A stretch of DNA of 64,000 nt from positions 1 through 64,000 of IMG/VR virus record IMGVR_UViG_3300046167_000585; one strand, 5' to 3'. The notes below the pieces were generated by a model that saw nothing but the letters and a program-made list of their open reading frames with translations, made no database searches and had not been told where the DNA came from. The translations under genes were made by a program, and so were the position numbers. Of this stretch, positions 241 to 56,161 are shown piece after piece; positions within the stretch are counted from its first letter, which is position 1, and every line of letters begins with the position of its first letter. Source of the stretch: a virus.

Positions 241-3200
241 TTACCATCCTTCTCCTTGTAATATTTCTAATCCTGGAGGTACAACTACTTCTTCAAATAT
301 TTCATCAAAACCACCTAAAGTTGGTAAAAAATTACCAGTAATTATGCTTGAATCTAGGATAGTTTCAATATCTAAACCAAGTAATCCTGTTCCTGTAAAT
401 AACAATCCTGCATTTAATGGTTTTTCTTTTATTAAATTAAATCCAGCACGTTGAATACGAACAAAGTATTTAACAAATAATATTGCTCCTATATCATTTG
501 CATAAGCTACATATCTATTTAAAGGTTGATCGTAGTTAACAAATGTTTCTATCATTGTTTTATATGCTTTATCTTCTGAAATACCTTTTTCTTGTGTTTG
601 ATAGTTGTATAAAGCATATCTAGCTACAAAATCACTTATTTGTAAAAAGTGTTGAGAAGCTTTAAATGCAGCAGTATTTTCTCCAAGATATGCATGATTA
701 GCTACATCAAAAGCTTTTCCTGTTACTAATGATCCAGCTTTTGATTCTTTTAATCTTTTAAATATTTTATTTCTATAAGTAAACTCATCTTGGTTAATAT
801 CTTCTGTAATAGATGTAAATAGACCTTGGTCAATAAATGGTGCTACTTTACTATTATTCATTTTAGCTACTAAAATATCTCTTTTATTTTGAACTTTAGC
901 ATCATTTTGTAATGCAGGAGATGCAGATATACGTATATCTAATAAACGCAATTCTTGAGCTCTTGTTTGATAGTCTACTAGTTCTGTATAAGCTTCTTTC
1001 CAAGATTTTAAAATGTAATCTATAGGTACACCATATAAGAAAGAAGTTACAAAGTTACTTGTAACGTTTACTGCAGGTACAATAGGAATTTTAAGCACAA
1101 TGTTTACTTTAGCCATTGCAACCATTTCTTTTATAAACTTTTCTAAAACTTTTGCATATCTTTGATATTTTGCAGAATTTTTAAAATATGGAATATTAGC
1201 AATTGATGGATTTACATAACCAAATACCGTATCTAACAATTTTCTTTCTATCCAAAATTCTTCTTTTCCAGTTTCTTTATTAACTGATGCGTGATACATT
1301 ACATCATCTTTAGCTTGTTTTGGTAAAGCTGAAAAGTATTCGTCTTGATATCTTCCATTATCTAAAATATTTACAAAGCCAGGCGTATTATCTTTATGGT
1401 TTTTCTTACCATATGAATACAACATTTCAATGGCTTCTCTATTAATCTTTTCTGATTTAATCTTATCCTGTAAATGACTATACATAGTCGGTAATACTTC
1501 ATCAAACATCAAATCTTGCTTTAAATGCTTTTCTGTTAAGCTATGACTTAAAGTAACACGATAATCTACAATATTTAAATCTTCGTCTACAACAGGAATC
1601 ATTACAGGTTTTTGACTTAAAATTCCTTTTCGGCTTTTTTTGTTTTGGCTTCTTTGAAAACCTTCAAACTTAGTCATAATGAAATCAGCATTATCTGGGT
1701 TTCTACTTAACATCTGTTTTTTACTAGTTCCTTTAAATTGCTTTGATGTTAAAGATATAATTCCTTTAGTCCTTGTTAAAACAGGATTGTTGTAAATAAC
1801 GTACAATCCATGTGGTTCTTTAGTATCAGATTCAACATTACCAATGAAAATGTGACCTTCTCTAATTAGTTTAGCTTTAGTATCTGGATCACTTGGCTCT
1901 ACTATTATTTGTGCATCAGGGTCAGTAACTACTGCTATATAACCTTTAGTCATTAATGCAGGGCTTGGTTTACCAGTTCTGTCTAAAAAACCTTCATTTA
2001 AAGAATCATTTTTAAATGCAGTATGTATGTTTAATAAACCTAAAAATGCATTTTCACTAGCAGTAGATTCTTCTGCTGCTAATTCTCTTTCCATCAATTC
2101 ACTTACACTTATTTTTGCATCTTTAAGATTTTCATTACGCAAAGCTAATAATGAAATATAAATATCTAATTCTTGTATTTCTTTTTCACTATTATCACGC
2201 CCATATGCTCTTTTTGATTTCATACCAGTTTTATAAATGTTGTGAGCATTTAGATACTGATTGTAATTAGTCGTTTTACCAGTTAGCATATAGTTTGCTA
2301 GTTGCGATGTTTGTAAACGATAATGCGAGTTTTTGTTAATATTTAAACGTTTGCGATATTTTGTTACTGCTGCATCAAGCTTAGTTTGGTCAGATATTAA
2401 TTCTAATATTTCATCTGTTGTAAAAGCTCCAGTACTAAATAAAACAGATAAATCTGTTTTCATAATAACTCTTGTTATATTTTCTTTTTGTTGTCTATCT
2501 AAATCATCGTATGTAATAAACATTCTTCGTAAAGCAATTTTTGTATCATCTTTATATTGTCTACGATTAGCATCTACTTGGTCATGTGATTTATATAGCA
2601 TCTTAATAAAATTATTTTCTATTCCACCAAATAAATCTGTTTTAATACCAACAAGATTATCTAACCCCATTGGTTTAAAGTTTTTATGTATTACATTTAA
2701 CTTTTCTTGTACTTTAGGATGGTTTTTAACAAACTCTCTATAAGATGATCCAAAATATGCTATTAATTTTGTGTCGTATAGTACATTAGCTAAAAAGTTA
2801 TTAATTTTTCCTTCTCTTGTAAGTCTATCAACCATCTTAATCCAAGCATCACTACCTACTCTAATTCCTCTACTTACTGCTTTTTCTAATAACTTAGCCC
2901 CTTCTTCATTACCTTTATCTAATAATGTACCTAATTTATCTGCTTTTAATGCTCTAGCAATAGAATCTCTTTTAGATTGATTAACAGCAACTATATCTCT
3001 AGTCATTTCAAATATTTGCTGTTCTACATTACTAGGTCGTTTTTTACCAGTTACTGTTCTTACAAGTCTTTCCATTAATTCAGAAACGAGTTGAATCAAT
3101 TTACCAACAAGTTGTTGATTAGGGTCTTTACTCCAAAGCGGAATAACTTGTGAATCCATGCTTTGTAATTTTCTAACTAAAAATTTATTAGTTAATGCAT

Positions 3201-6200
3201 AGGCTAAAAACTCATCTAATTCAGCTTCTGCTGGAGTTTTATCTCCAAATACGTAATCATATTGTGCTTTAGCTGCATCAATTTCTGCTTGTTTATCTGT
3301 TAAGAAAATGATATTACCATTACTATCTTTATTCAAAAAAATCTCATAAGGACGTTTTTCTGATTTTAGTATTTGTTTTTTTACCTGGTTGCGTATGCTT
3401 TCTAACTTTTGTTTATAAGTTGCATCATTACGTAAAGCAAACGCAGTAAGAATATGTATTAGTTCATGTGCGTAAACTTCTTGTGCAGTTTGTTCTGAAT
3501 AAGATTCAGGTCGATATTTGTTATATTTAATTTTTACAGAAGTATCATCAATGTATGCTTCGCCATGTGCTTTAACATTAGCTTTTAATAACGTTAATTC
3601 TGTTTTATCTAATTGAATACCTGCTTTACTAATAATCTCATCAATAACAAGTTGTAAATGACTTTGTTGTATATTTTTATCTTCATTATTTAGATAAGCA
3701 TCTTGACTAATTAGTCCAAGTTTTTCAAAAATAGCTTGTAAATTTTGACGTAAAGAGTTTGTTCTATATACTTCTTCTAATTCTGTTGCAACTATATTAT
3801 CTATAGACCTTAAAATATTGCCATCTGCATCAAAATCAGGTTCTCCTTCATCATAAAGGTCTTTAATTTTGCCAATGTTTTTAAGAGCCATTTGATTTGC
3901 ATGATTTTCTCTAGCAGGACCTTTAGGTCTTTTTTGATTCTCTATACTAAAATGTGCTCTTTCATGTTCAATTACAAAATTAATATACTCTTGTACATTT
4001 TTAAACGTGTCTTCTGGTAATGCGTCAACACCTTCTACTTTAGGTTTAGTCCAAGCTTTTTGAGCATAACCTTCTGTTATTGTAGCAATATCTATATAAA
4101 TTGCACCCAGACCATTCATATCTGTATAACCTGTTTTAGCACCTATAACTCTACCACTACCATTGCTTGCTAATAAAGACCCTTTAGCTTCTTCAACAAT
4201 TACAATTGTTTTAAGTTTATCTTCAGTAAATCCTTTAAAGTCAGGTGCTTCAATGTCATTACTACTAAAAGTAGGTTCTTCAACTTCATTAGCTTTTTCT
4301 TCTTGAGCATTTTTTGCATCTTCTTTAAGAAGATCAAATTGTTTATCTAAAGCTTTAAGAAGGGCATCTAGATTTGTTATTTCTTCTCTCTCTTTTCTTG
4401 TTAAACTAGCGAAATCTTTTTTACGTAAATTAAGTAATCTATTTTTTTCAAACATAAGAGCATCATAAATATCTTGCTCTTCTGATGTTTCAATAACAAT
4501 TTTTTCTCTTGTATCTTCTTCAGTAGTTTCTTCAGTAGTTTCTTCTGCTTTCTCTGTAGTGTCTACACCTTCTTGCTCTTGTGTTGTTGTTTCTTCAGGT
4601 GTAAGAGTTTCATCAACGATAGACTCAGGCATATACATTTGCGAAATTGTCCAATTAGCAATGTTTTGTTGCGTACTTAAGTTAGGGTCTCCATAAGCCT
4701 TAATTAAAGCATTAAGGTTACGTTTTCTAGTTTTAATAGCATTTTTAAGATCTTTAATAATCTTTTCTAAACTCATTTCATTAAGTTCTTTATACAATGC
4801 GTCTTTTTGTTTGTTAACTCTATCTCTAGCTTCTATAGTCTTAGGTTTTATTCTTTCTAATCTTTTTAGTTGTCGTTGTATTTCATCACCTCTAAATGAT
4901 TTTTTTTGAAGTGTTTCAATAAGAGCATCTTCATCAAAATTACCATTTCTATAGTTTTCTAATATTTGCTCATATTGTTCTAAAGACTTTTCTAAAAATA
5001 CGTGATTTAAATTATTGTTTAAAAAAGCTTGATTATAAATTTGAGCATTCTCAATTGCTTGATTAACTGGTGAAATGACTGCATCAAATATTGGTAGCAC
5101 TTCTGGTTTTTGTTCTAATAAATCTGCTAACACAGTAGCATCCATATTTTGAACCATATTAATTACTGCAGATACACCAGGTTCTTTAAAAGTACTAGCC
5201 GTAGTATTTGCACCAATTCTATAAATTTCTTCTAATTCATAAAGCTTACCATTAGCTTGACGCCTTGGTACCCAATCCCCTAATACTTTTCTGTATAACC
5301 GTTCAACAAGAGGTTTAGTTTTTACTTCAACTCTATTTCCATTAGTATCAACAAATCTAATTAATTGAATTAATTTACCTTGATTAGAGCTATCACCCCA
5401 AGGCGCATTTAGTCTAGGCATAAAAGAATCAGCCAAGTCTGCTGCTATTCTCATCTTAACGTCTATGTCAGTTACACCTGTACCTAAATCTCCAATTGCT
5501 TGTTCATAAGCTTGCATAAACATAAAGAATTCAGCTTCGACTGATCTTACAATGCTATCTCTACTTTCTACTATTGGTGCTAGTAATTCTTCTAAAGCAC
5601 TTTCAAATATTTTTTTAGGGTGTGCTTTTCCTTCATGATAATAAATATTATAAAAGTAAGCTTGAAATTCTTGTAGTTCTAATGGTTTCTTTTCAGTTCC
5701 TACTGTAAAACTAAAACCATAAAGATTATTACTGATTTCTACATCAGTATCTTTATCTTTTGTAGTACCTGTTTTATCTAATCTTTCAACCAGTTTTATA
5801 GGTTTTTTAAGTACATCATTGATAGCATTTTCAATTATTTGTACCTCTTCTTTAATTTTTAATTTTTCTTCTGCATTAGCATTATCATATGCTGTTTGAT
5901 GTTTACCTAAAGTATCATACAAATCAGGTGCTATAGATTCTACAACATTTCTAATAACTTTAAGTATTCCTGCTCCATAGTTACTAATCATAACTGGAGT
6001 TTTTGCTAAATCTCTAGCAAACTTAGTTAATGCGTTTTCATTATCTAATAACTCACCATGTAAAACTTTTACAGCATTCTGTTGTGTAGCACTAAAACCG
6101 TTAGGGCTATTAACGGTCACTTTTTTCATTATTTTATTAACTATGTTTCTACTAAAAGCTTGATATACATCATCTTTATTACTGTTAATAAATTTTTCAT

Positions 6201-6474
6201 AAGTAGCTTTCGCTTCTTTTTTACTAACAAATACTCCTACTCTTTCTAATGCTTCTTTTAATTTAGTAGGATTTTTAGTTTTCTTGTCTAAGTTTCCACC
6301 TAAGAATTGTAATAAACCGATTGCATAACCGTTGGTTATGCCATCGGTCTCAATACCAATACTAGTAGTAAATCCTCCATCAGGTTTATAAACAGATAAA
6401 GCAACTAAAGCCTCTAATACATGCGCACTTGCACCACCATTAGTTAATACATCTTCTTGCATTAACTTTTTCAT
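241..6474 (-). CDS. vRNAP fragment 3: catalytic core and C-terminal ejection region
   Basis: This is the longest intact piece (2077 residues from an internal Met). The true frame continues upstream without a stop to about 6960. It starts just before motif A and contains motifs A, B and C in its first 470 residues. Motif C has Phe where most relatives have His before the catalytic Asp. Downstream is a long charged, helical region with Glu/Thr-rich low complexity (around 4490-4600). Two HExxH motifs follow: HERAH at 3952-3966 and HELIH at 3454-3468. The last 600 residues are globular-looking and of unknown function. In N4 the C-terminal third is required for packaging the polymerase into the virion. 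The internal Met is not a real start: there is no ribosome site, and the conserved polymerase sequence runs through it. Confidence 0.85.
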   Translation of the reverse strand: MKKLMQEDVLTNGGASAHVLEALVALSVYKPDGGFTTSIGIETDGITNGYAIGLLQFLGGNLDKKTKNPTKLKEALERVGVFVSKKEAKATYEKFINSNKDDVYQAFSRNIVNKIMKKVTVNSPNGFSATQQNAVKVLHGELLDNENALTKFARDLAKTPVMISNYGAGILKVIRNVVESIAPDLYDTLGKHQTAYDNANAEEKLKIKEEVQIIENAINDVLKKPIKLVERLDKTGTTKDKDTDVEISNNLYGFSFTVGTEKKPLELQEFQAYFYNIYYHEGKAHPKKIFESALEELLAPIVESRDSIVRSVEAEFFMFMQAYEQAIGDLGTGVTDIDVKMRIAADLADSFMPRLNAPWGDSSNQGKLIQLIRFVDTNGNRVEVKTKPLVERLYRKVLGDWVPRRQANGKLYELEEIYRIGANTTASTFKEPGVSAVINMVQNMDATVLADLLEQKPEVLPIFDAVISPVNQAIENAQIYNQAFLNNNLNHVFLEKSLEQYEQILENYRNGNFDEDALIETLQKKSFRGDEIQRQLKRLERIKPKTIEARDRVNKQKDALYKELNEMSLEKIIKDLKNAIKTRKRNLNALIKAYGDPNLSTQQNIANWTISQMYMPESIVDETLTPEETTTQEQEGVDTTEKAEETTEETTEEDTREKIVIETSEEQDIYDALMFEKNRLLNLRKKDFASLTRKEREEITNLDALLKALDKQFDLLKEDAKNAQEEKANEVEEPTFSSNDIEAPDFKGFTEDKLKTIVIVEEAKGSLLASNGSGRVIGAKTGYTDMNGLGAIYIDIATITEGYAQKAWTKPKVEGVDALPEDTFKNVQEYINFVIEHERAHFSIENQKRPKGPARENHANQMALKNIGKIKDLYDEGEPDFDADGNILRSIDNIVATELEEVYRTNSLRQNLQAIFEKLGLISQDAYLNNEDKNIQQSHLQLVIDEIISKAGIQLDKTELTLLKANVKAHGEAYIDDTSVKIKYNKYRPESYSEQTAQEVYAHELIHILTAFALRNDATYKQKLESIRNQVKKQILKSEKRPYEIFLNKDSNGNIIFLTDKQAEIDAAKAQYDYVFGDKTPAEAELDEFLAYALTNKFLVRKLQSMDSQVIPLWSKDPNQQLVGKLIQLVSELMERLVRTVTGKKRPSNVEQQIFEMTRDIVAVNQSKRDSIARALKADKLGTLLDKGNEEGAKLLEKAVSRGIRVGSDAWIKMVDRLTREGKINNFLANVLYDTKLIAYFGSSYREFVKNHPKVQEKLNVIHKNFKPMGLDNLVGIKTDLFGGIENNFIKMLYKSHDQVDANRRQYKDDTKIALRRMFITYDDLDRQQKENITRVIMKTDLSVLFSTGAFTTDEILELISDQTKLDAAVTKYRKRLNINKNSHYRLQTSQLANYMLTGKTTNYNQYLNAHNIYKTGMKSKRAYGRDNSEKEIQELDIYISLLALRNENLKDAKISVSELMERELAAEESTASENAFLGLLNIHTAFKNDSLNEGFLDRTGKPSPALMTKGYIAVVTDPDAQIIVEPSDPDTKAKLIREGHIFIGNVESDTKEPHGLYVIYNNPVLTRTKGIISLTSKQFKGTSKKQMLSRNPDNADFIMTKFEGFQRSQNKKSRKGILSQKPVMIPVVDEDLNIVDYRVTLSHSLTEKHLKQDLMFDEVLPTMYSHLQDKIKSEKINREAIEMLYSYGKKNHKDNTPGFVNILDNGRYQDEYFSALPKQAKDDVMYHASVNKETGKEEFWIERKLLDTVFGYVNPSIANIPYFKNSAKYQRYAKVLEKFIKEMVAMAKVNIVLKIPIVPAVNVTSNFVTSFLYGVPIDYILKSWKEAYTELVDYQTRAQELRLLDIRISASPALQNDAKVQNKRDILVAKMNNSKVAPFIDQGLFTSITEDINQDEFTYRNKIFKRLKESKAGSLVTGKAFDVANHAYLGENTAAFKASQHFLQISDFVARYALYNYQTQEKGISEDKAYKTMIETFVNYDQPLNRYVAYANDIGAILFVKYFVRIQRAGFNLIKEKPLNAGLLFTGTGLLGLDIETILDSSIITGNFLPTLGGFDEIFEEVVVPPGLEILQGEGW

Positions 6475-9400
6475 AGATTTATTTAATGCTTTCTTATTGT
6501 TTAAGTTACTAATAACTTCTTTAACTATTTCGTTGTTATTAATTAACTCAAAAGTTTCTCTACCTTCTTTTAGAGTTTTAATGTTATAACCAAATGCTTG
6601 TACTACTGCTAACTTAAATACTTCTAAATCAGATTTAGATTCTATTTTAGATTCTGTACCTGCAGGATTAAACAGAGCTCTATGAATTTTGCTACGTTGC
6701 CCATTAATAGTATTACTTACAATACGTAATCTATGTTGTACTTGTGCTTTATATTTAAAATAGAATCCTGTATTACCATTACCTCGTGCTAGATAGTCTC
6801 TAACATGTTGAAGGTCTTGTAGTTTTTCTCTATTAGCAGCTTTAACAGCGTCTTTACTTAAATCATGTTGTGCTTCTTCATCTTTTACGCCTACTAAATC
6901 TTCTAATACATCATCATTTAGTAAACTAAATATTTTTAATTCGTCTTGTTTACCTATCCACTTTTACTTTTTGTAGCTTTGCCATTAAAGCTTGTGTACG
7001 TGTATTTATAGTAAAGAAGCTATCATCTGTTGTTTCTTGTACTTCTTCTACAGGTTTATCATAAGTATCTCTTAAAATAGTTTCTGCACCTTTAATAACC
7101 TTAAGGTTTTCACTATTTTCTTTAAAAACTTCTAAAACAGGATTATCTTGTATGTAAACAGTATTCCAATCTAAACTTTCCTTAGCTCGTTTACCTTCTT
7201 CTGCTTCAAAATTAAAATTAGGATTTTCGCTTAGTAAGGTTAGATCATATTCACCTCTTGCTAATTCAATTAAGCCATTTTCAACATCAACATCACCGTC
7301 TGTTTTAGCTTCAATAAATCTAGCAGTTTGAATTGATAGTAATCCTAAAGCAGTAGCTAGCCTAGGTTGTAAATTAGTTCTTTTAACTAAAGGACGTTTA
7401 AATACTTTGTTTTTAATATTTTGTAATCCAAGTATAAAATCACTTTCAGTAGGACGTTGCACAGAAATATTTAATAAATCTAATATTTCAACACCAATTT
7501 CTTTAGCTGCATCTTTTACAAAAATACCTGAATTGCCAAAAGTTGCATAATGTTCTTTACGCAAACGTCTAGTTTGTTTAGCATCTCCAAATACTAGTTC
7601 TGCTATAGCAAAAGCAGGTCTAAACTCGCTTTTCTTTTGATTAATGCCACTCCAATGCATCATAGATATCAACATTGCAAATATTACATCATCAGGCATA
7701 TTGCCATCTTGATCTAATAATAATTTAACTTCTCTAACAGCTAAAACACCTTCAGCTTTTTCTTGTCTAGTTAAACCAAGATTAATATTTTCTTGAAATA
7801 TTTTTTTAAATTCATCAAATCTACTTGCTAGTGCTTCAATATACGCAGTATCTTTAACACCTAATTTAATTAGCTTAATTCTAATTTTATCGCCAGTTAA
7901 TGTTTTATCTTCATTTTCAGAAAAGAAAGATTTACGAGTTACATCTCTAATCTTAAATAAATCATTAACTTTTAAAGATGAATCTTTTAACGAATTAAAT
8001 GTGCCTTCAAATTTATTTAATATATTGTTAGCTATTCTTTTATTTCTAGTTTCTTTTTTAACTTTTCTAGCTTCTTTTAAATTTACTTTAGCTTCTTCTA
8101 ACTTTAATTGTAAATTTTCTATTTCAACTCTTCGAGCAAGATTTCCTCTTTGTTTTTCTAAACCTTTTTAATCGGTTTATTTCTGCTTTAATATCTTTTA
8201 TCGATGTTTTTAATTCTGTTTCAGCTTCAGTAAACTGTTCACGTTCACGTGTACGTCTTTGTTTTGTTTCTTCTTTTGTTTCTTGAGGCTTTTGAGTTTC
8301 TTCTTTAACATCTACAACTTCTTCTTCAACTACTTCTTCTTTAGGTTTTTTAGGTGCTTGCTGAGTACCAGCTTTAACATCATCTAAGTTACCTGTAGTC
8401 TCTTGAGCTCTTTTAGCAATTTCTGCTTTTCTTGCTTTATTTCTAGCTTGTACTTCCTCTGCAAGACGTTTACTAGCAGTTTCATCAATATTTTTAATAA
8501 TGTTATCAATTAGCTCATTTATGTTTTCGACATAAATTGCTTCAGTTTTTACTAATCTAACAAGTTTAGGGCTTCTACCATCAATAAAAAAGTAATCTTT
8601 TTTCTTATGTCCTTTAGGTAATTCACTTTCATTTTTAAATATTTTGTAAGTTTTTTTATCAATAAAAACAGTTACTTTTGTTTTTTGATGAATTTCATAT
8701 GCTTTATCAAATTTTTTACTTTTTTCTAATAGTATTTTAACGAAATTAGCTAATTGCTTTTTTTGCTTACCTTTTAATATATTATTTTCAGCATCTTTTA
8801 GATATGTTTCAATACCTCTAAATCTAGTTCCTTCTCCAGTAAGAATTTCGTTATGTACAATTTTTAAAGTTTTCTTAACAGCAGCATCTGTTGCTGAATT
8901 AATAATTGTTTGTGTATTTTTGTAAGCTTTTGCAATTTTTTCTCTAAGCTTAACATTTTGCTTTTCAGTTTCATTTAAACCTTTTTTATCGATATTACTA
9001 CCTTTATTAAGACTATTAAGATTTAAAGAATTTAAAACTCTACCTGTTGGCTTAATAGGTTTAGTAGCAGCACCTGCAGATTGTTCTGTGCTATCTTTTT
9101 TAGGTTTAGCTTTAGGTTTAGGCTTAGCTGCAGTTTCTTCTTCTACAATCTCATCTGCAAACTCTTTTTCTAAAACTTTTCTAAGTACAATAAATTTTCT
9201 ACGTTGTTCAATAAGATTAGCTTTAACAACTTTATCTGTTGTTGCATTAATATCATTATTTAAAGTTCTTGTAGCTTCCCACAACTCATCATAAGCATCT
9301 AATACTTCTTCTTCTGCTTTATTAAGTTCATTTATGTCAGGGTCTTTTTTATTTTTTATTTTTTCATATTCTTCATATTTTTTAGTAGTTAGAACAATTA

Positions 9401-11873
9401 AAGTATCAACTTCTTTTTTAGTTTTTGACTTTACAACTTTGTTTTTAAATTCAAAACTATTTAAAGTTTTTTCAATTTGTGTAACAACGCCTTTAGGTAA
9501 TAAAGGTAAACGATTACCTGTATTATCTTTAGATATGTTATCAATTTGAATACCTAATTGATTACGCTCATTTTCTAAACGTTTTCTTTTTCTTGCTGAA
9601 ACATTACCTTTTAAAATTTTGTTTATAGCGTTAATACGTTTAGTAGAATCTCCAATAACTTCTCTAATTACGCTTTGACCTTTTCTTTGACCTTCTCTAA
9701 CTTTGCTGCCAATAGTTCTATCAATACGTCCAGCTGCATTCTTGTTTGCTTTAGCTATACGTTCATCAAGACGTTTTTTAATAGCTTTAATTTGTTTATT
9801 CTTTTCTTTTTGCGCAACAGTTTTTTTATCTTTAACTTTTTGAATATCAATTTCAGCTTGCTTATTTAGATTAGCAATTTTTTGATCTCTTTTAGTGTTT
9901 ACTAAATCACTAATAGTATTTTCACTAGTAGTAGCAGAACCTGTATTTAAATTAGTTAATACTTCTTCTATTGCTTTATTTGCTTCAACTACATTATTAA
10001 AAGAACTATCACGGTCTTTAACAGGTAAATTTCTTTGGTCAACTTCAATTTGATTTAATTGTCCTGCTAAATCTAAAGCTTTATCTAAATTTCCACCTTT
10101 TTGATAAGTTTCATCTAAATTAAGTCCTAAAGCTTCTGCTTCGCTTTCAAGAGTCAATACTGCTGATTCTAGAGCTTCTTCTGTTGTATTGTAGCCACTA
10201 CCAGTAACGTACTCATTTTTAAGCTCAGAAGCCTTTTCTCTAATCTCTTGAATGCTTTCTCTTACAGCTCCTCTATCACCTCTAATTCTATTAGCTAATT
10301 CTGAACCTGTTTGAACTGTACTGCTTAATGCACCACCAGGTACTAATCCTGCTACAAATGAATTTAAAATTCCTGATATAAATTCTTCTGCTAAATACTC
10401 AGGTAAATGTCCTTCTTTAATCCAATCTTGTGTAGTTTCTTCAATAATGAACTGTAAAGCTTCAGTCGTGCCTTCAGTAAGACCTCCTATTGACATCTCT
10501 TTACCAACATTTTTAATGTTTTGACCAAGATTACGTTTTCTAGTAGACTTTTTAAGTGTTTCCTTAGCAGCTTTTGTATTTAAACCAAATTTATTAAGTA
10601 ATCTAGCTGGGTAAATTAATTCTAAGCCAGCTGCTGCAGTACCACCTAATAATGCAAAACCTTGTGCTCTAGCATCTCTTTCTCCTGCATTACCAACATC
10701 ACCGTAGATACCACCAACTTCCATTACTTCAGCACCTGCAAAAGCTCCAAGAATTCTACTTCTGTTAACACGTTTACCTAATAACTGTCTAGTGTTATTA
10801 CTTACGCCATCTTTAAAAGTTTCTTTTATGCCTTTCTTTATTGCAGATTTAGCAATTAAGCCTGTTATGCCTCCAGTACCCATCATTAATGCTATTGATG
10901 GCATTGCTTCACCAATTAAAGCGCCTAATTTAGATAAAGTTTGTCCTGGGTTAGTAAACCAATCTATTTCTTCAACTTTAGGTAATGTTTCTCCTCTAAG
11001 TTGTGCTGAATTTATTTCACGTAAATATTGTTTTAAAAACCAACTACCTAATTCTTCATCTCCTGATGCATCTACTATTAAAGCAGCAAATCCATAGCCT
11101 GTAGCTTGTACATTATCAATTCCTTTTTGTAACCCTATTTGTGCTTCTTTCCAAAAACCTTTACCTTGTTTTTTAAATTCACCTTTTTCCCAAGCTTGAA
11201 GCTCATTAACTGCTTCTCTCCAAGCTTTATTATTATAGTTACTTAAGTAAGCAGCATTATTTTCAGGAGTATTAATAACTTCATTAATAATTTCACTTGT
11301 TTCAGGATTACGTATAGTAATTAAATCTCTACCAAAATATCCTACACCATCTTTACGAATGTCTAATTTAACAGTATCACTTTCAAGGTCTTGACCTTTA
11401 TAAAGCAATTGTTTAAAATTTTCAGCTTGTTTAGCTGCTTCTTCGTTTAACATTCCTTGAGTTACGTAACTTCTATCAGGTAACCCCATTCGTTTAGCTA
11501 AAGAAGTACGATGTAAATCCCACTTTTTACTTCTTTTACTTCCATCTATTGGTTCTTCCTTGCCAAGATATGGCAATAAAGCTTTAGTTACAGGATCATA
11601 CTTTGCTGTTTCGTAAGCATCAAATGTGAAACCAGGTTCTGTATTTAATCTACCAAAACCATATAAAGTATCAGCATCAAAATCTTGACCTAAATTAACA
11701 TCAAAAGTTTGAAATTCATTAGTTAAGTTATAAAGATTTTCTGTTTTTTGTTGTGATAGTATTCCTAGCTCAGCTTGCTTTTTTGCTACTAAGTTTGTAA
11801 AACTATTTTCGTTATTCTCGTCTTGAGCTCTTGCTAGAATTTCTGCAAAATTACTCTGAGGTAAAGTTGCCAT
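241..11873 (-). CDS. giant N4-type virion RNA polymerase, interrupted by two frame errors
   Basis: Read as one gene this encodes about 3876 residues (N4 gp50 is about 3500). In N4 this protein is packaged in the virion, ejected with the DNA and transcribes early genes. Catalytic motifs of the T7-family fold lie in the middle: motif A with Asp at about residue 1843 (ETDGITNG), motif B with Lys 1957 and Tyr 1965 (RDLAKTPVMISNYG), and motif C with Asp 2263 (LPIFDAVIS). A-to-B spacing is 114 and A-to-C is 420, against 111 and 392 in N4. The frame breaks at a five-base run 8165-8169 and a four-base run 6962-6965. Removing one base at each restores one uninterrupted frame. The gene ends the late operon, as expected for a late-made ejected protein. 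Confidence 0.9.
6950..7699 (-). CDS. vRNAP fragment 2: N-terminal part of polymerase domain
   Basis: This is the middle piece. Its open frame actually begins at the frame break near 8165 and ends at a TAA (6950) created by the second break. The sequence is not like T7 polymerase at residue level but occupies the position of the N-terminal domain that reads the promoter hairpin in N4 vRNAP. Between this stop and the next fragment's Met the corrected frame stays open. It contains QVQHRLR near 6730-6750, about where the T/DxxGR motif should be, with the Arg retained and the Gly replaced. It is not an independent gene. Confidence 0.75.
   Translation of the reverse strand: MPDDVIFAMLISMMHWSGINQKKSEFRPAFAIAELVFGDAKQTRRLRKEHYATFGNSGIFVKDAAKEIGVEILDLLNISVQRPTESDFILGLQNIKNKVFKRPLVKRTNLQPRLATALGLLSIQTARFIEAKTDGDVDVENGLIELARGEYDLTLLSENPNFNFEAEEGKRAKESLDWNTVYIQDNPVLEVFKENSENLKVIKGAETILRDTYDKPVEEVQETTDDSFFTINTRTQALMAKLQKVKVDR
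8124..11873 (-). CDS. vRNAP fragment 1: N-terminal ejection region
   Basis: This 1249-residue piece starts at the only credible start of the whole gene (MATLPQSNF). That ATG sits one base from the stop of the upstream 426-aa gene. The first 300 residues are globular. A hydrophobic, glycine- and alanine-rich stretch follows at about residues 310-420 (EAMPSIALMMG, FALLGGTAAAG), probably membrane-active. Residues 500-1249 are highly charged coiled-coil with Lys- and Glu-rich runs. This layout fits a protein that is threaded through a portal and helps cross the cell envelope. The last 20 residues are read in the wrong frame after the break at 8165-8169. Confidence 0.85.
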   Translation of the reverse strand: MATLPQSNFAEILARAQDENNENSFTNLVAKKQAELGILSQQKTENLYNLTNEFQTFDVNLGQDFDADTLYGFGRLNTEPGFTFDAYETAKYDPVTKALLPYLGKEEPIDGSKRSKKWDLHRTSLAKRMGLPDRSYVTQGMLNEEAAKQAENFKQLLYKGQDLESDTVKLDIRKDGVGYFGRDLITIRNPETSEIINEVINTPENNAAYLSNYNNKAWREAVNELQAWEKGEFKKQGKGFWKEAQIGLQKGIDNVQATGYGFAALIVDASGDEELGSWFLKQYLREINSAQLRGETLPKVEEIDWFTNPGQTLSKLGALIGEAMPSIALMMGTGGITGLIAKSAIKKGIKETFKDGVSNNTRQLLGKRVNRSRILGAFAGAEVMEVGGIYGDVGNAGERDARAQGFALLGGTAAAGLELIYPARLLNKFGLNTKAAKETLKKSTRKRNLGQNIKNVGKEMSIGGLTEGTTEALQFIIEETTQDWIKEGHLPEYLAEEFISGILNSFVAGLVPGGALSSTVQTGSELANRIRGDRGAVRESIQEIREKASELKNEYVTGSGYNTTEEALESAVLTLESEAEALGLNLDETYQKGGNLDKALDLAGQLNQIEVDQRNLPVKDRDSSFNNVVEANKAIEEVLTNLNTGSATTSENTISDLVNTKRDQKIANLNKQAEIDIQKVKDKKTVAQKEKNKQIKAIKKRLDERIAKANKNAAGRIDRTIGSKVREGQRKGQSVIREVIGDSTKRINAINKILKGNVSARKRKRLENERNQLGIQIDNISKDNTGNRLPLLPKGVVTQIEKTLNSFEFKNKVVKSKTKKEVDTLIVLTTKKYEEYEKIKNKKDPDINELNKAEEEVLDAYDELWEATRTLNNDINATTDKVVKANLIEQRRKFIVLRKVLEKEFADEIVEEETAAKPKPKAKPKKDSTEQSAGAATKPIKPTGRVLNSLNLNSLNKGSNIDKKGLNETEKQNVKLREKIAKAYKNTQTIINSATDAAVKKTLKIVHNEILTGEGTRFRGIETYLKDAENNILKGKQKKQLANFVKILLEKSKKFDKAYEIHQKTKVTVFIDKKTYKIFKNESELPKGHKKKDYFFIDGRSPKLVRLVKTEAIYVENINELIDNIIKNIDETASKRLAEEVQARNKARKAEIAKRAQETTGNLDDVKAGTQQAPKKPKEEVVEEEVVDVKEETQKPQETKEETKQRRTREREQFTEAETELKTSIKDIKAEINRLKRFRKTKRKSCSKS

Positions 11874-24737: not shown

Positions 24738-26370
24738 ACCACCTAAATCTTCACGATTAATAGCAACAAACTCTTCGTTAGTTACTCTTATTATCTCTTC
24801 AGTCAGATAAAAACTCAGAATTCATAGATATTATTTTGCGTCCTATTTGATTAATACCATCTGCTAATCTTCTAAGTATTCCTAACTCACGTTTAGATGC
24901 TGCATCTAATGCACTTCTAATACCTGTAGCTGTATTACCTAACGCTGAGCCACTAATACCACTATTAAATGCTTTAACACCTGTTAATGATTCAGCTTCG
25001 TTGTTTTGAAGATTTAACATGTTTAATGCACTATTAGGTATTTCAGGATACGTATCCATGTGAAATGCTTGTCTAGGGGTCTACATTAGAATTAAACTTA
25101 TAATCTGCACCTTGTTCAAACTTACGAGCATTTGTAACATCTAAAGCATCTTTACGAATACCCATTTGTCCATTAGCAGACCTACCAATAATATCAATCA
25201 TGCCTCGTGTTACAGCACCAATAATCTTTTGGTTATCTTCTAATAATGCACCATCTGGTTCACCGTAAATGTGTTTACGTACAGGTAAGTACTGAACTGA
25301 TACAAATGGTAGTTTTTTATCAGGAAATGGGTTAGACTCCATTCTAATTAATACATCACCTACCCAAGTAGCAATAAATGGTTCTACTTCACCAGTATCG
25401 TTAATATCCCAGTAGCCCCAATATTCATAAACAATTATCTTTTTTACGTGGGTCGTCTTTAAACTTAAAGTTTGTTTCATCTTCTAAGTTATGGTCTGGT
25501 TGTGCTAATGGTGCAGCATTCTCTAATATAACATGTTCTAAATTTGAGTATCTACCGTCTTTTTTAAGTTCAGCCATAGATGTTTCAAAACTGTAAATAA
25601 TAAAGTTAGCTTTATCTAAATTACCTAAACAAGTTGGATCAATAATTACATTGTTATAATCACATACTTCTAATTCTGGTTGATTTTTAATAACATTAAT
25701 TTGTTCTTCTATACGAGTACCATTAGGTACAGGCATCATTGGCACACCGTTTGCCATTGTTAATTCATGTGCTTCTTGTATTTCAGGAGGAGTTTCTTTT
25801 TTATAAGCATCAGGATTTTGTTCCATCATTTGATGTAATTGTTCATGCATTTGAGCTGATTCAACAGATTCTACAAAATTCAAATACAGGAACTTCTACT
25901 TCTACAATTTCATCTTCATATTCCCATCCAACTTTAACTATTACTGTTCCTTCATCTACAGCAGTACGGACGTATTCATCAATAAATGCAGTTTTGTCTA
26001 TCTTACAATTGATTTGATAATTAAGTAACAATCCATTTTGTATAGCAGACTCTTTATCTTCAAATGTCATTGGGGCTGTATTAAATAAATCATCTGTAGA
26101 TAAAAATGGTTCACTTAACGCAGCATAACGCCATTCAGCTTGTTTTCTAATAAGTTTAGGAACAATTTTTGATCTGCCTTTCTTATTGTTAATTGTTTGT
26201 TCACCATTTAAAGCATCTATCCAACCATCAACATCTAATACATGTGACGTGTGAGAAGATTGAGCTTCATCGTAATCAGCTTTAAGTTCTAATAAATCAG
26301 GTGGATTTTTCCAATCTACAAGCTTTTTTGGTTCACTTAAATCTACATCTAAATCATGCTGTTTTGCCAT
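24231..26370 (-). CDS. N4-type portal protein, interrupted by four frame errors
   Basis: Five overlapping or adjoining frames read as one protein of about 711 residues (N4 portal gp59 is 763). The breaks are at homopolymers 25875-25878, 25440-25445, 25076-25079 and 24809-24813, and removing one base from each gives a continuous frame. The order of regions fits a portal: N-terminal wing ([21 protein letters not shown]), stem-region helices, a crown with [12 protein letters not shown], and a long helical C-terminus rich in Gln, Ala and Lys. It lies upstream of the scaffold and capsid, as in N4. The separate pieces should not be read as different genes. Confidence 0.85.
24799..25059 (-). CDS. 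portal fragment 4
   Basis: Helical crown region following VDPRQAFHM in the corrected frame, with [20 protein letters not shown] and a conserved [12 protein letters not shown] end. A break at 24809-24813 separates it from the C-terminal piece. Confidence 0.65.
25073..25480 (-). CDS. portal fragment 3
   Basis: This continues [18 protein letters not shown] in the corrected frame. It includes [20 protein letters not shown] and [20 protein letters not shown], the most conserved-looking part of the portal. It stops in a tag created at 25076-25079. Confidence 0.65.
25425..25883 (-). CDS. portal fragment 2
   Basis: This continues [13 protein letters not shown] in the corrected frame. It carries a mixed helical and beta region ([20 protein letters not shown]) and ends in wrong-frame DNCL after the break at 25440-25445. 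The internal Met is not a real start. Confidence 0.65.
25861..26370 (-). CDS. portal fragment 1 (N-terminus)
   Basis: Residues 1-169 of the portal from the true start ([10 protein letters not shown]). It contains the segment [20 protein letters not shown], typical of N4-type portals, and ends in a wrong-frame FCRIC after the break at 25875-25878. Confidence 0.7.
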   Translation of the reverse strand: MAKQHDLDVDLSEPKKLVDWKNPPDLLELKADYDEAQSSHTSHVLDVDGWIDALNGEQTINNKKGRSKIVPKLIRKQAEWRYAALSEPFLSTDDLFNTAPMTFEDKESAIQNGLLLNYQINCKIDKTAFIDEYVRTAVDEGTVIVKVGWEYEDEIVEVEVPVFEFCRIC

Positions 26371-48667: not shown

Positions 48668-50449
48668 ATGAATATTCAATTACACAACGAGTTAGAATAC
48701 TCAAAGAGAATGCGTAACAATCTAATACTCAACGATGTATTAGACGAAATACCTACAAAAATTACAGAAGCACTGACTATAGCTATTAATAGTTATAGAT
48801 CAGGTAGTTATTATCAATCTAAACAAGATAGAATAAATAACCTTCCTAATACTGTAGAGATAGTAACTAATATACTTGCTATTATTCTATCTTCTAATCG
48901 TCCAAAACCTATCCAAGGCGTAGCTACTGAACTAGGTTTTACTTTAGGCTATCGGAATCAAATTAGTGCTGTCAAAACAGGTGCTGAAATATTATCAATA
49001 TGTCACGGTAAATTGTATGATATACAATTGAATAATGATAGTACTGAAATAGTACCTAAATACAAGTTAACAACTGATACAGTTGATAAAATAAATGTAT
49101 TACAATATTTACCACCAATGCTACAGAAACCTAATGATTGGATATCCAATACAGACGGTGGATGGCTATGGGAGCGTAAATCTATCATTCTAGGCAAAGG
49201 CACTCATCACAATAAGCCTCAAGCTTATGATGCACTCAACTTATTACAATCAGTTGCTTGGACAATAGATATACCAACCTATACTAACTTTGTTAATACT
49301 AATGAAGCTATGGACAATGACCAATTTGAGCGTGTAGTACGCGATTACTTTGGTAAACCATTCTATTTCGTATGGCGTTATGACAAACGAGGTAGATCAT
49401 ACTCATCAGGTTACGACTTAAATGTCCAATCTAACGAGTATGGTAAAGCATTACTATCATTATTTAACAAACAGGTAGTAACTAACCTGGATAACCTAAA
49501 GATTGCTATTGCTGGTCATGCTGGTCATGATAAATTAACATGGTCAGAGCGTATCAATTGGTTTAATCAACAATTAAACTTTAATATTGATACATTTGAC
49601 GAACCAATACTAGGTTCTAAAGCAATACAAGCATATCTAGACAGTAAGAAAGGTATTGCTACAGGTTATACAATGAGTATTGACGCTACTGCATCAGGTT
49701 TACAGGTAATGTCAGCATTATCAGGTTGTAAAGTAACTGCTAAAGCATGTAATATGGTCAATACAGGTAACAGAGAAGATATTTATCAGTTTGTTACAGA
49801 CAAAATGAATAAACTATTGAAACCTGCAGATCAAGTTACACGCAGTGATGTCAAGAAACCTGTTATGACTACATTCTATAACTCAGAAGCTAATCCTAAA
49901 GAAACATTCACAGAGCCTCAATTAGAAGCATTCTACGCATCGTTAGACGATACATTACCAGGTGCGTTAGATGTTATGGATGCTATTAATGAGTTCTGGG
50001 ATTTTGACTCTGATGTACACATGTGGACATTACCAGATGGTCATGTAGCTAAAGTACCAGTTACTGAAATGACTAATATCCGTATTGAAGTTGATGAGCT
50101 TAATCATCGTACATTCACATACAGATATAACAAACAACAACCTTCTGAGAACTACAGAAGTTTAGTTGCTAATATAGTACATAGTGTTGATGGCTATGTA
50201 GCTAGAGAAATGGTTAGACGATGCCATGCTATGAAAATCGAACTTGTCCATATCCATGATTGTTTTGTATTTAGTCCTAATTACCTTCAAATAGTGTGTC
50301 AAACATACAGAGAAATATTAGCTGAAATTGCTAATAGTGACTTGTTATCTGACATTCTTAGTGAAATTAGTGGTAAATATGTACCTGTTACTAAACATTC
50401 TACTGATTTAGCTAAAGAAATTCTAAACAGCCAATATATGCTGTCATAA
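48668..50449 (+). CDS. single-chain T7-family RNA polymerase (N4 RNAPII-like)
   Basis: This 593-residue polymerase has all four signature motifs: DxxGR at about residue 240 (DKRGRSYS), motif A at 338 (SIDATASGLQVMSAL), motif B at about 392-405 (RSDVKKPVMTTFYNSEA) and motif C at 529 (HIHDCFVFS). It is far shorter than T7 polymerase (883), missing most of the N-terminal domain. N4 RNAPII, by contrast, is two subunits of 269 and 404 residues. It likely transcribes the replication genes. Its start has GGAG 6 bases upstream and lies 28 bases after a terminator. Confidence 0.92.
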   Translation: MNIQLHNELEYSKRMRNNLILNDVLDEIPTKITEALTIAINSYRSGSYYQSKQDRINNLPNTVEIVTNILAIILSSNRPKPIQGVATELGFTLGYRNQISAVKTGAEILSICHGKLYDIQLNNDSTEIVPKYKLTTDTVDKINVLQYLPPMLQKPNDWISNTDGGWLWERKSIILGKGTHHNKPQAYDALNLLQSVAWTIDIPTYTNFVNTNEAMDNDQFERVVRDYFGKPFYFVWRYDKRGRSYSSGYDLNVQSNEYGKALLSLFNKQVVTNLDNLKIAIAGHAGHDKLTWSERINWFNQQLNFNIDTFDEPILGSKAIQAYLDSKKGIATGYTMSIDATASGLQVMSALSGCKVTAKACNMVNTGNREDIYQFVTDKMNKLLKPADQVTRSDVKKPVMTTFYNSEANPKETFTEPQLEAFYASLDDTLPGALDVMDAINEFWDFDSDVHMWTLPDGHVAKVPVTEMTNIRIEVDELNHRTFTYRYNKQQPSENYRSLVANIVHSVDGYVAREMVRRCHAMKIELVHIHDCFVFSPNYLQIVCQTYREILAEIANSDLLSDILSEISGKYVPVTKHSTDLAKEILNSQYMLS

Positions 50450-54003: not shown

Positions 54004-55032
54004 ATGATTGAAATCTCATCTTCTGCTATGGTAGATGCACTAGACAGTGTATTACTATCTAAGCTAACACCTATGCTAGTAGGCTCACCAGGTATTGGTA
54101 AGTCTGACATTGTTAAGCTAGTTGCTAAAAAACATAATCTTAAATTGATTGACGTACGTCTAGCACAATCAGATCCAACAGATTTGAATGGCTTTCCTAC
54201 ACTACAAAGTGATGGACAGCGTATGGATTATGCACCACCAACTACGTTTCCACTAGAAAAACTAGACCAGATTCCAGAAGGACATGATGGCTGGTTATTA
54301 TTTCTAGATGAAATCAATGCAGCACCACCATCTATCCAAGCAGCAGCTTACAAGCTAGTCTTAGATAGACAAATAGGTGCACATAACTTACACAAGCGTG
54401 TAGCTATTGTGTGTGCAGGCAACAAAGCAACAGATAAAGCTATTGTAAATAGACTATCTACTGCTATGCAATCCAGAATGATTCATTTGAATCTTATGGT
54501 AGATCCAGAAGCTTGGTTAGATTGGGCAAATGCATCAGATATTGACCACAGAGTCATATCGTTCATTAAATTTAGACCTGAGTTACTACATAAATTTAAT
54601 CCTAGTCATGCAGATGACACATTTGCTTCACCACGTACATGGGAATTCTTATCTAAAATTATTAAAGATAAGATTAAGTTCACTAGAACAGACCATGCAG
54701 TGCTTACAGGTACTGTAGGCGAAGGTCCAGCTACTGAGTTTAGAGCATTCTGTGAGGTTTACAAAGACTTACCGACTATTGAAGATATGATTGAAAATCC
54801 AACAGCAATTAGTATTCCTAATGAGCCAGGACATCAATATGCAATGACTACTTTGATAAGTCATCATTCTAATGATGATACAATTGAGCCATTGATGATA
54901 GTTATTAAGAAATTACCAATTGAATTTCAAGTAGTTGTATTGAAAGATATTTATTCTATAGCACCTGAGTTAAAACAAAATCCAATTATTCAAGACTGGA
55001 TTAATAAAAACGCAGATAAACTATTCGGTTAA
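54004..55032 (+). CDS. MoxR-type AAA+ ATPase (N4 gp24-like)
   Basis: This 342-residue ATPase has Walker A at 27-34 (GSPGIGKS), Walker B at about 100 (LLFLDEINAAPPSIQAAAYK), a sensor-1 asparagine (VCAGNKATDKAIVNR) and an arginine-finger-type end (TAMQSRMIHL). MoxR ATPases act as chaperones for VWA-domain partners, and the partner gene follows after four bases. N4 carries the same pair as gp24 and gp25. Start has AAGGAG 6 bases upstream. Confidence 0.88.
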   Translation: MIEISSSAMVDALDSVLLSKLTPMLVGSPGIGKSDIVKLVAKKHNLKLIDVRLAQSDPTDLNGFPTLQSDGQRMDYAPPTTFPLEKLDQIPEGHDGWLLFLDEINAAPPSIQAAAYKLVLDRQIGAHNLHKRVAIVCAGNKATDKAIVNRLSTAMQSRMIHLNLMVDPEAWLDWANASDIDHRVISFIKFRPELLHKFNPSHADDTFASPRTWEFLSKIIKDKIKFTRTDHAVLTGTVGEGPATEFRAFCEVYKDLPTIEDMIENPTAISIPNEPGHQYAMTTLISHHSNDDTIEPLMIVIKKLPIEFQVVVLKDIYSIAPELKQNPIIQDWINKNADKLFG

Positions 55033-55036
55033 TCTA

Positions 55037-56161
55037 ATGGAATACGAACAAGCAGATACTCAACTTAGACATGCTAAGATAGATTTGATGACTAAATCAG
55101 TCTTCTTATCTACTATTTGTCTAAGTCTAAAGCATGAGTTTACTGACAAGTTGCCTACTGCTGGTACTAATGGAATATCTATTTTGTACAATCCAGAGTT
55201 TCTTGAAAAGCTTTCACCACAAGAACGTACTGGGCTACTGGCACACGAAGTGTGGCATGTAGCCTTTAATCACTTAACCAGACTTGGTGACAAAGATAAA
55301 ATATTGTGGAACAAAGCAGGTGACTATGTCATTAACTACATGTTAGAACAAAGCGGTATGACTATCCCAAGAGGAGGTTTACTAGACCCTAGGTTTGCAA
55401 ACATGAGTACTGAAGAAGTCTACAACATTATTAAAGAAGAAGAACCTGAAGGAGGTCCAGGCGGAGACTTTGAAAGCGATTTATTAGAACCACCACCAGG
55501 TCTAGATGAGGGAGGTGTGTCTGACAAAATCACTGATATGATTGTTAAAGCTCAGCTACAATCTAAAATTGCTAATAAAGATAAAGGTGAGATACCAGGA
55601 GAGATAGCAAGAGCTATAGATGATCTCATAAATCCTAAACTACCTTGGTATGAGATACTACAAAGATTTATGTCTGACTTAGCAAAAGATGACTATTCTT
55701 GGGCTAGACCTAACAAACGCTTTTATCCTAATCATTACTTACCTAGTCAACAATCGTTTACTTTAGGTAAGGTTGTAGTGGCTATAGATACCAGTGGCAG
55801 TGTAAGCCAACAAGAAATTACTGAAATGCTTAGTGAAATTGAAAATATTCGTGAAACTTTCAAACCTGAAAAACTTACAATCATAGATTGTGATGCTGAA
55901 ATACATAATATTTATGATGTAGAAAAATATGATAACATCTTAGAATTAGAATTTCATGGATACGGAGGCACAGATTTTCAGCCTGTAATTGAACACTGTA
56001 ATCAAGTTAATCCTGATGTACTAATCTATTTCACTGACTTATATGCAGAAGATGTTCGTGATGTAGGGGATTATCCAATTATATGGATATGTACAGATAA
56101 TAATCCTGATGTACAGCCCGTAGGCGAGACAATCTATTTAAAACCTGATGGAAATAGATAA
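55037..56161 (+). CDS. VWA / zinc-metallopeptidase-like partner of MoxR (DUF2201, N4 gp25-like)
   Basis: This 374-residue protein has an N-terminal peptidase-like domain with HEVWH at residues 70-74 (HExxH), followed by GDYVINYML. After an acidic, Gly/Pro-rich linker (about 135-165) comes a C-terminal VWA-like domain with a MIDAS-type DTSGSVS near residue 251 and GGTDFQP later. Together with MoxR it forms a known ATPase-VWA pair of unproven function in N4-like phages. Confidence 0.88.
   Translation: MEYEQADTQLRHAKIDLMTKSVFLSTICLSLKHEFTDKLPTAGTNGISILYNPEFLEKLSPQERTGLLAHEVWHVAFNHLTRLGDKDKILWNKAGDYVINYMLEQSGMTIPRGGLLDPRFANMSTEEVYNIIKEEEPEGGPGGDFESDLLEPPPGLDEGGVSDKITDMIVKAQLQSKIANKDKGEIPGEIARAIDDLINPKLPWYEILQRFMSDLAKDDYSWARPNKRFYPNHYLPSQQSFTLGKVVVAIDTSGSVSQQEITEMLSEIENIRETFKPEKLTIIDCDAEIHNIYDVEKYDNILELEFHGYGGTDFQPVIEHCNQVNPDVLIYFTDLYAEDVRDVGDYPIIWICTDNNPDVQPVGETIYLKPDGNR

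Follow-up and report, generated by a model that had tools for sequence, protein, structure and literature searches.

Two candidate zinc-peptidase sites in the C-terminal part of an N4-like virion RNA polymerase: a second zincin copy and a non-homologous HExxH module

The virion RNA polymerase (vRNAP) encoded in the window, the whole 64,000-nucleotide stretch of viral DNA analyzed here, carries two candidate zinc-protease-like active sites in the C-terminal part of the ejected protein, and their motifs, judged from sequence, are real and not a product of chance. The most probable reading (about 0.62) is that one motif, HELIH, belongs to an intact second copy of a zincin domain, that the module around the other, HERAH, replaces the first copy, and that the peptidase would act after ejection, its target being a host protein or the vRNAP itself. 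The motifs, their conservation, the homology of the HELIH domain and the replacement of the first copy are direct observations.

The mere presence of a protease domain in an N4-like vRNAP is not new. The preliminary description of this DNA knew of no such report for N4 gp50, which was mistaken: a HEXXH zincin domain was described in N4 gp50 at residues 2130-2448, and one or more in all N4-like RNAPs, by Iyer et al. 2017 (PMC5512222), so that a protease domain in the polymerase has been a known idea since that year. The zincin-domain statement is repeated for Cbunavirus (PMC8472413). The N4 structure paper of 2025 notes the motif in C1 (domain 2124-2375), reports no significant structural relative of the C2 domain and describes what the vRNAP C-terminal domain does as unknown (PMC12633501); no report of bound zinc was found in that paper, and no protease activity of the vRNAP zincin is on record in the literature. 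Apparently new are the tandem paralogous copies, the alternation of the intact site between them and the replacement of one copy by an unrelated module, for which a literature search that covered mostly non-subscription papers, and is therefore weak evidence of absence, found no report.

The polymerase gene and its two HExxH motifs

The window genome is of the Schitoviridae type and encodes an N4-like RNAPII, a primase, a DNA polymerase and a terminase. N4 RNAPII consists of two proteins. The ORF at 48668-50449 (+) encodes 593 aa, matches phrog_2166 at residues 3-215 and phrog_2051 at 270-521, contains RNAP-like motifs and looks like a single-chain N4-like RNAPII. A separate gene pair of a known kind, an ATPase and a DUF2201 putative metallopeptidase/VWA protein with a HExxH of its own (LLAHEVWHVAF), is located at 54004-56161 (+).

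The C-terminal 1200 aa of the window vRNAP match the virion RNA polymerase family phrog_2206 with an E-value of 1.8e-248 in a profile search, and the middle piece of the protein matches it with 7.2e-8. The single-subunit RNAP motifs A (ETDGITNGY) and B (ARDLAKTPVMISNYG) align with the same motifs in N4, PG11 and L025, the nearest relative of the window gene in IMG/VR. Profile and motifs both place the gene among the N4-like virion RNA polymerases. In the window it is spread over three frames (8124-11873, 6950-8167 and 241-6963), which are regarded as one gene because the vRNAP of L025, a single frame of 3990 aa, aligns collinearly to all three pieces. The two frame breaks may be sequencing faults; with its reading frame broken twice, the window copy may not yield a complete protein. 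The vRNAP frame of another relative, L024, is broken at RNAP motif B by a near-duplicate of ~28 bases (1969-2030) that is probably an assembly fault. Among deposited genomes, vRNAP genes are annotated as "ribonuclease E" in two Vibrio phages (KY065148, 28409-28933; OP313112, 51588-52112) and as "metallopeptidase" in Pantoea phage G19 (GenBank PV483189, 18373-28800).

The preliminary description had reported two HExxH motifs, 166 residues apart and in the contexts VIEHERAHFS and YAHELIHILTAF, and all of this holds; both lie on the minus strand (Table 1). Its residue numbers, 2636 and 2802, are nominal, because that numbering presumes that 241-11873 is a single open frame where there are three; counted within P0001 (open frame 241-6474), HERAH begins at residue 837 and HELIH at 1003. 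The acidic helix that had been proposed to follow HELIH and to supply the third zinc ligand is found at 3193-3219 (LDEFLAYAL), and a Glu is present there in all 14 intact sites of the family. For HERAH the preliminary description had named no third ligand; the candidate is Glu856 (RENHANQMA).

HExxH is a short motif, and it also occurs in the window ORF 25428-25895 with no sign of meaning, as would be expected if the motifs had arisen by chance and lacked function. However, the 2077-aa ORF contains two where its composition predicts 0.03, 31 vRNAPs together contain 40 where about 1.1 are expected, and the motifs are placed collinearly and accompanied by a conserved third ligand. Chance is accordingly an extremely improbable explanation of the pair, and for HELIH it is refuted by the family alignment.

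Table 1. Features of the vRNAP gene, in positions of the window
Feature	Positions	Strand	Remarks
N4-like virion RNA polymerase (vRNAP) gene	241..11873	(-)	phrog_2206 match; collinear with the L025 frame
Frame break 1	8124..8167	(-)	adjoins short A runs
Frame break 2	6950..6963	(-)	one extra nucleotide relative to L025, at about 6964
Single-subunit RNAP motifs A and B	5974..6342	(-)	read in translation
HERAH module	3862..4221	(-)	P0001 about 752-871; occupies the C1 zincin slot of N4
HERAH, HExxH motif 1	3952..3966	(-)	P0001 837-841; H, E, H invariant in window, L024 and L026
Glu856 (RENHANQMA), candidate third ligand of motif 1	3907..3909	(-)	15 residues past the motif; next helix in the model
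Second-site zincin domain	3130..3702	(-)	P0001 about 925-1115; profile match to N4 vRNAP, fold list
HELIH, HExxH motif 2	3454..3468	(-)	P0001 1003-1007; HExxH at the aligned site in 14/31 vRNAPs
Glu1088 (LDEFLAYAL), candidate third ligand of motif 2	3211..3213	(-)	Glu in 14/14 HExxH-bearing vRNAPs, 0/17 others

Tandem zincin copies across the family

The family survey comprised 31 vRNAPs with two alignable sites, site 1 being that of N4 and site 2 that of HELIH. N4 gp50 contains a single HExxH (HELVH at 2228), with NEFMA downstream of it at 2309. Site 1 is intact in 20 of the 31 proteins, every one of which has an E[F/L] third-ligand helix. Site 2 is intact, with HExxH and third Glu, in 14, and both elements are gone in 17, N4 among them, all of which keep site 1; because the sequences are related, the counts of 14 and 17 overstate the number of independent events. 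Both sites are kept in PG11, phi1 and L025, and no protein of the 31 has neither site intact. The canonical first copy is missing in the window and one relative, in which a non-homologous HExxH module (HERAH...E..AN..A) stands in its place. A quick tree, with long branches and used for grouping only, implies five changes among the three site classes.

By profile comparison, sites 1 and 2 are paralogous zincin copies in tandem. They align in hhalign with a probability of 98.1 and with both helices, that of HExxH and that of Glu, in register; for site 2 against its degenerate form the value is 99.3. A profile built from the window, L024, L025, L026 and phi1 (A4) matches the N4 vRNAP twice, at 2223-2330, where the site is intact, and at 2445-2552, where it is degenerate. 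The second match suggests that the start of the N4 C2 domain (2445-2552, L002) is a decayed zincin.

Homology of the HELIH domain to the zincin domain of N4 gp50 is well supported by these alignments. The metallopeptidase reading of HELIH is based on this profile homology, on the conserved Glu ligand and on a fold list dominated by zincins. The AF2 model of region 740-1116 has a mean pLDDT of 44.5. Its elements follow the order helix, three strands, HExxH helix and Glu helix, with pLDDT of about 45-69 there, and the placement of HExxH on the first C-terminal helix and of Glu on the second is that of the zincin-like MPTases of Iyer 2017. The fold list obtained with this low-confidence model consists mostly of zinc peptidases and their fold relatives. 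Its matches include N4 9PNR residues 2395-2571 (Z 6.3, rmsd 3.6, 126 residues aligned) and the M34-type PPEP-1 (Z 4.7, rmsd 4.9, 131 aligned), the list maximum being Z 6.4; these values come from a low-confidence model, and a Z of 4-6 falls inside the range of chance matches and alone is no proof. The fold assignment of HELIH, a sequence-based one, is carried by the profile homology rather than by the Z scores. Membership in the SprT-like family (PF10263) was rejected, at 16.2 and 20 bits against a Pfam gathering cut-off of 25.6.

A structural role has to be weighed at this point, in which the zincin folds would be scaffolds, possibly metal-stabilised, and devoid of peptidase activity, as the second copy of N4 already seems to be. 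The retention of the region in the 17 vRNAPs whose second copy is ligand-less is consistent with such a role, as is the requirement of the zincin-holding region for encapsidation (PMC5512222). Against it, every vRNAP examined retains at one site the general-base Glu of HExxH, a residue superfluous for zinc binding alone, and loss of HExxH goes along with loss of the third Glu; a purely structural function is therefore considered very unlikely. A working HExxH is present throughout although its location varies, so selection probably acts on an enzyme activity carried by the ejected protein and not on one fixed contact, and the pattern of kept, decaying and replaced active sites argues for selection of this kind.

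The roseophages EE36phi1 (L013) and RPP1 (L017) contain, besides site 1, an extra HExxH in the N-terminal half of the vRNAP (VHETGHLVD at ~1323 and IHEMAHIID at ~1291, respectively). Searches with the zincin region alone in IMG/VR and with VBP32 as the query revealed no further relatives, and the vRNAP as the query found no relatives in genome contigs. Alignment A2 was too diverged to serve as a search profile, and the candidate H55 (Ab09) was discarded as a chance match to another gene. Because the IMG/VR scans gave few loci, few homologues were usable for modelling.

A non-homologous module in the slot of the first copy

HERAH and HELIH are not copies of one domain, as hhalign detects no similarity between them. 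Nor is the HERAH module the canonical first copy. Compared by profile, it shows no similarity to site 1 or site 2 (0.5 and 1.8%), the 166 residues that separate it from site 2 differ from the spacing of about 235 in PG11 and phi1, and in L025 the canonical copy occurs with no HERAH module. Because L025 is the sister of the window in the quick tree and carries canonical site 1 instead, the content of the C1 slot has been swapped among close relatives.

The residues H, E, H, E, N and A of the module are invariant in the window, L024 and L026 (27-31% identity to the window). L024, which is 52% identical, reads HEQGH and then EKEANEYAFKAIG. The AF2 model of the core, computed from the three sequences, has pLDDT values of 82-91 in six of seven ten-residue blocks and 67 in the remaining one, and in it the HExxH helix is directly followed by the Glu helix, the pair that characterises the zincin-like MPTases of Iyer 2017. 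The upstream part, the would-be sheet, has pLDDT under 50. Fold lists of the model against the PDB contain no solved zincin and no IrrE, and searches of the module against Pfam (E 10), PHROG and the PDB gave no match. In BFVD, large phage proteins match the module, for instance A0A6J5N5Q0 (1325 aa; E 1.9e-4, 36% over 78 columns); a row named IrrE-like has a non-significant E of 1.8. Searches of phages, genome contigs and plasmids added no confident relative of the module.

These results bear on the possibility that the module is no zincin but a helical insert with an incidental HExxH, which would leave HELIH as the only catalytic site. The empty searches of Pfam, PHROG and PDB and the missing profile similarity to either canonical copy are what such an insert would give. 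It is nevertheless judged unlikely, as the six residues do not vary among three diverged copies located at two positions in the protein, the predicted helix pair bears both HExxH and Glu, and the module occupies the slot of the missing canonical zincin. We regard the HERAH module as a moderately supported candidate for a zinc-metallopeptidase site.

The proposal that the ejected vRNAP contains a metallopeptidase is, in sum, well supported for HELIH, with ligands conserved across 14 vRNAPs and a zincin-dominated fold list from a low-confidence model, and moderately for HERAH, with ligands conserved in three sequences and no match to a solved zincin.

Proposed action after delivery and comparison with known systems

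In the proposed mechanism, zinc would be held at each site by a His-His-Glu triad, and the Glu of HExxH would act as the general base. The protein would be packaged whole and then ejected together with the polymerase, and the peptidase would become active following delivery, with a host protein or the vRNAP itself as its target. Action after delivery is the most likely timing because the N4 vRNAP is packaged whole and unprocessed (PMC5512222); self-processing and host cleavage upon entry are among the proposals made in 2017 (PMC5512222).

A narrower form of this explanation is that, once in the cell, the zincin severs the polymerase from the C-terminal part at the acidic linker joining them and thereby frees the polymerase from inhibition. 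The C-terminal domain of N4 inhibits transcription in vitro (PMC12633501), a long low-complexity linker lies upstream of the HERAH module in the window, and P1 DdrB, which has a C-terminal zincin, undergoes processing (PMC5512222). However, the N4 protein is whole in the virion, and recombinant N4 vRNAP shows no degradation (PMC12633501), which makes self-processing a doubtful, if serious, possibility; a target other than the vRNAP itself is slightly favoured. A wider proposal, that each N4-like vRNAP needs one working C-terminal zincin, be it either paralogue or an unrelated HExxH module, which would cut an autoinhibitory C-terminal part and so time early transcription, is quite unlikely in our estimate. 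For the preferred reading of a peptidase active after ejection, the conserved ligand residues are targets that can be tested in a laboratory N4 mutant.

ImmA/IrrE-type peptidases (PF06114) have a HExxH that is followed by an E..AN..A helix. The HERAH module resembles them by eye; it has no Pfam match, and its fold list contains no solved IrrE. The vRNAP of L026 (IMG/VR 3300031227_000095) shares with the window both the second-site zincin and a HERAH-like module (WTKP, ALPED.F, HExxH, E...N..A). In L026, by contrast, the module lies in the N-terminal third of the protein (residue 1177), far from the C1 slot that it occupies in the window. The vRNAPs of Vibrio, Pseudoalteromonas and Alteromonas Schitoviridae (phi1, PG11, pVco-7, VBP32, pYD6-A, phi50-12 and PT15-A5) carry at the HELIH-aligned site a HExxH and an xEF third-ligand helix; unlike the window, none of the seven has a HERAH module. 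N4 gp50 also combines a HExxH and a Glu helix C-terminal to the polymerase of an ejected vRNAP, in a zincin that is profile-homologous to the HELIH domain. The two proteins differ in the copy that has stayed intact, which is the first in N4, where the second (2445-2552) has degenerated, and the second in the window, where a non-homologous module takes the place of the canonical first.
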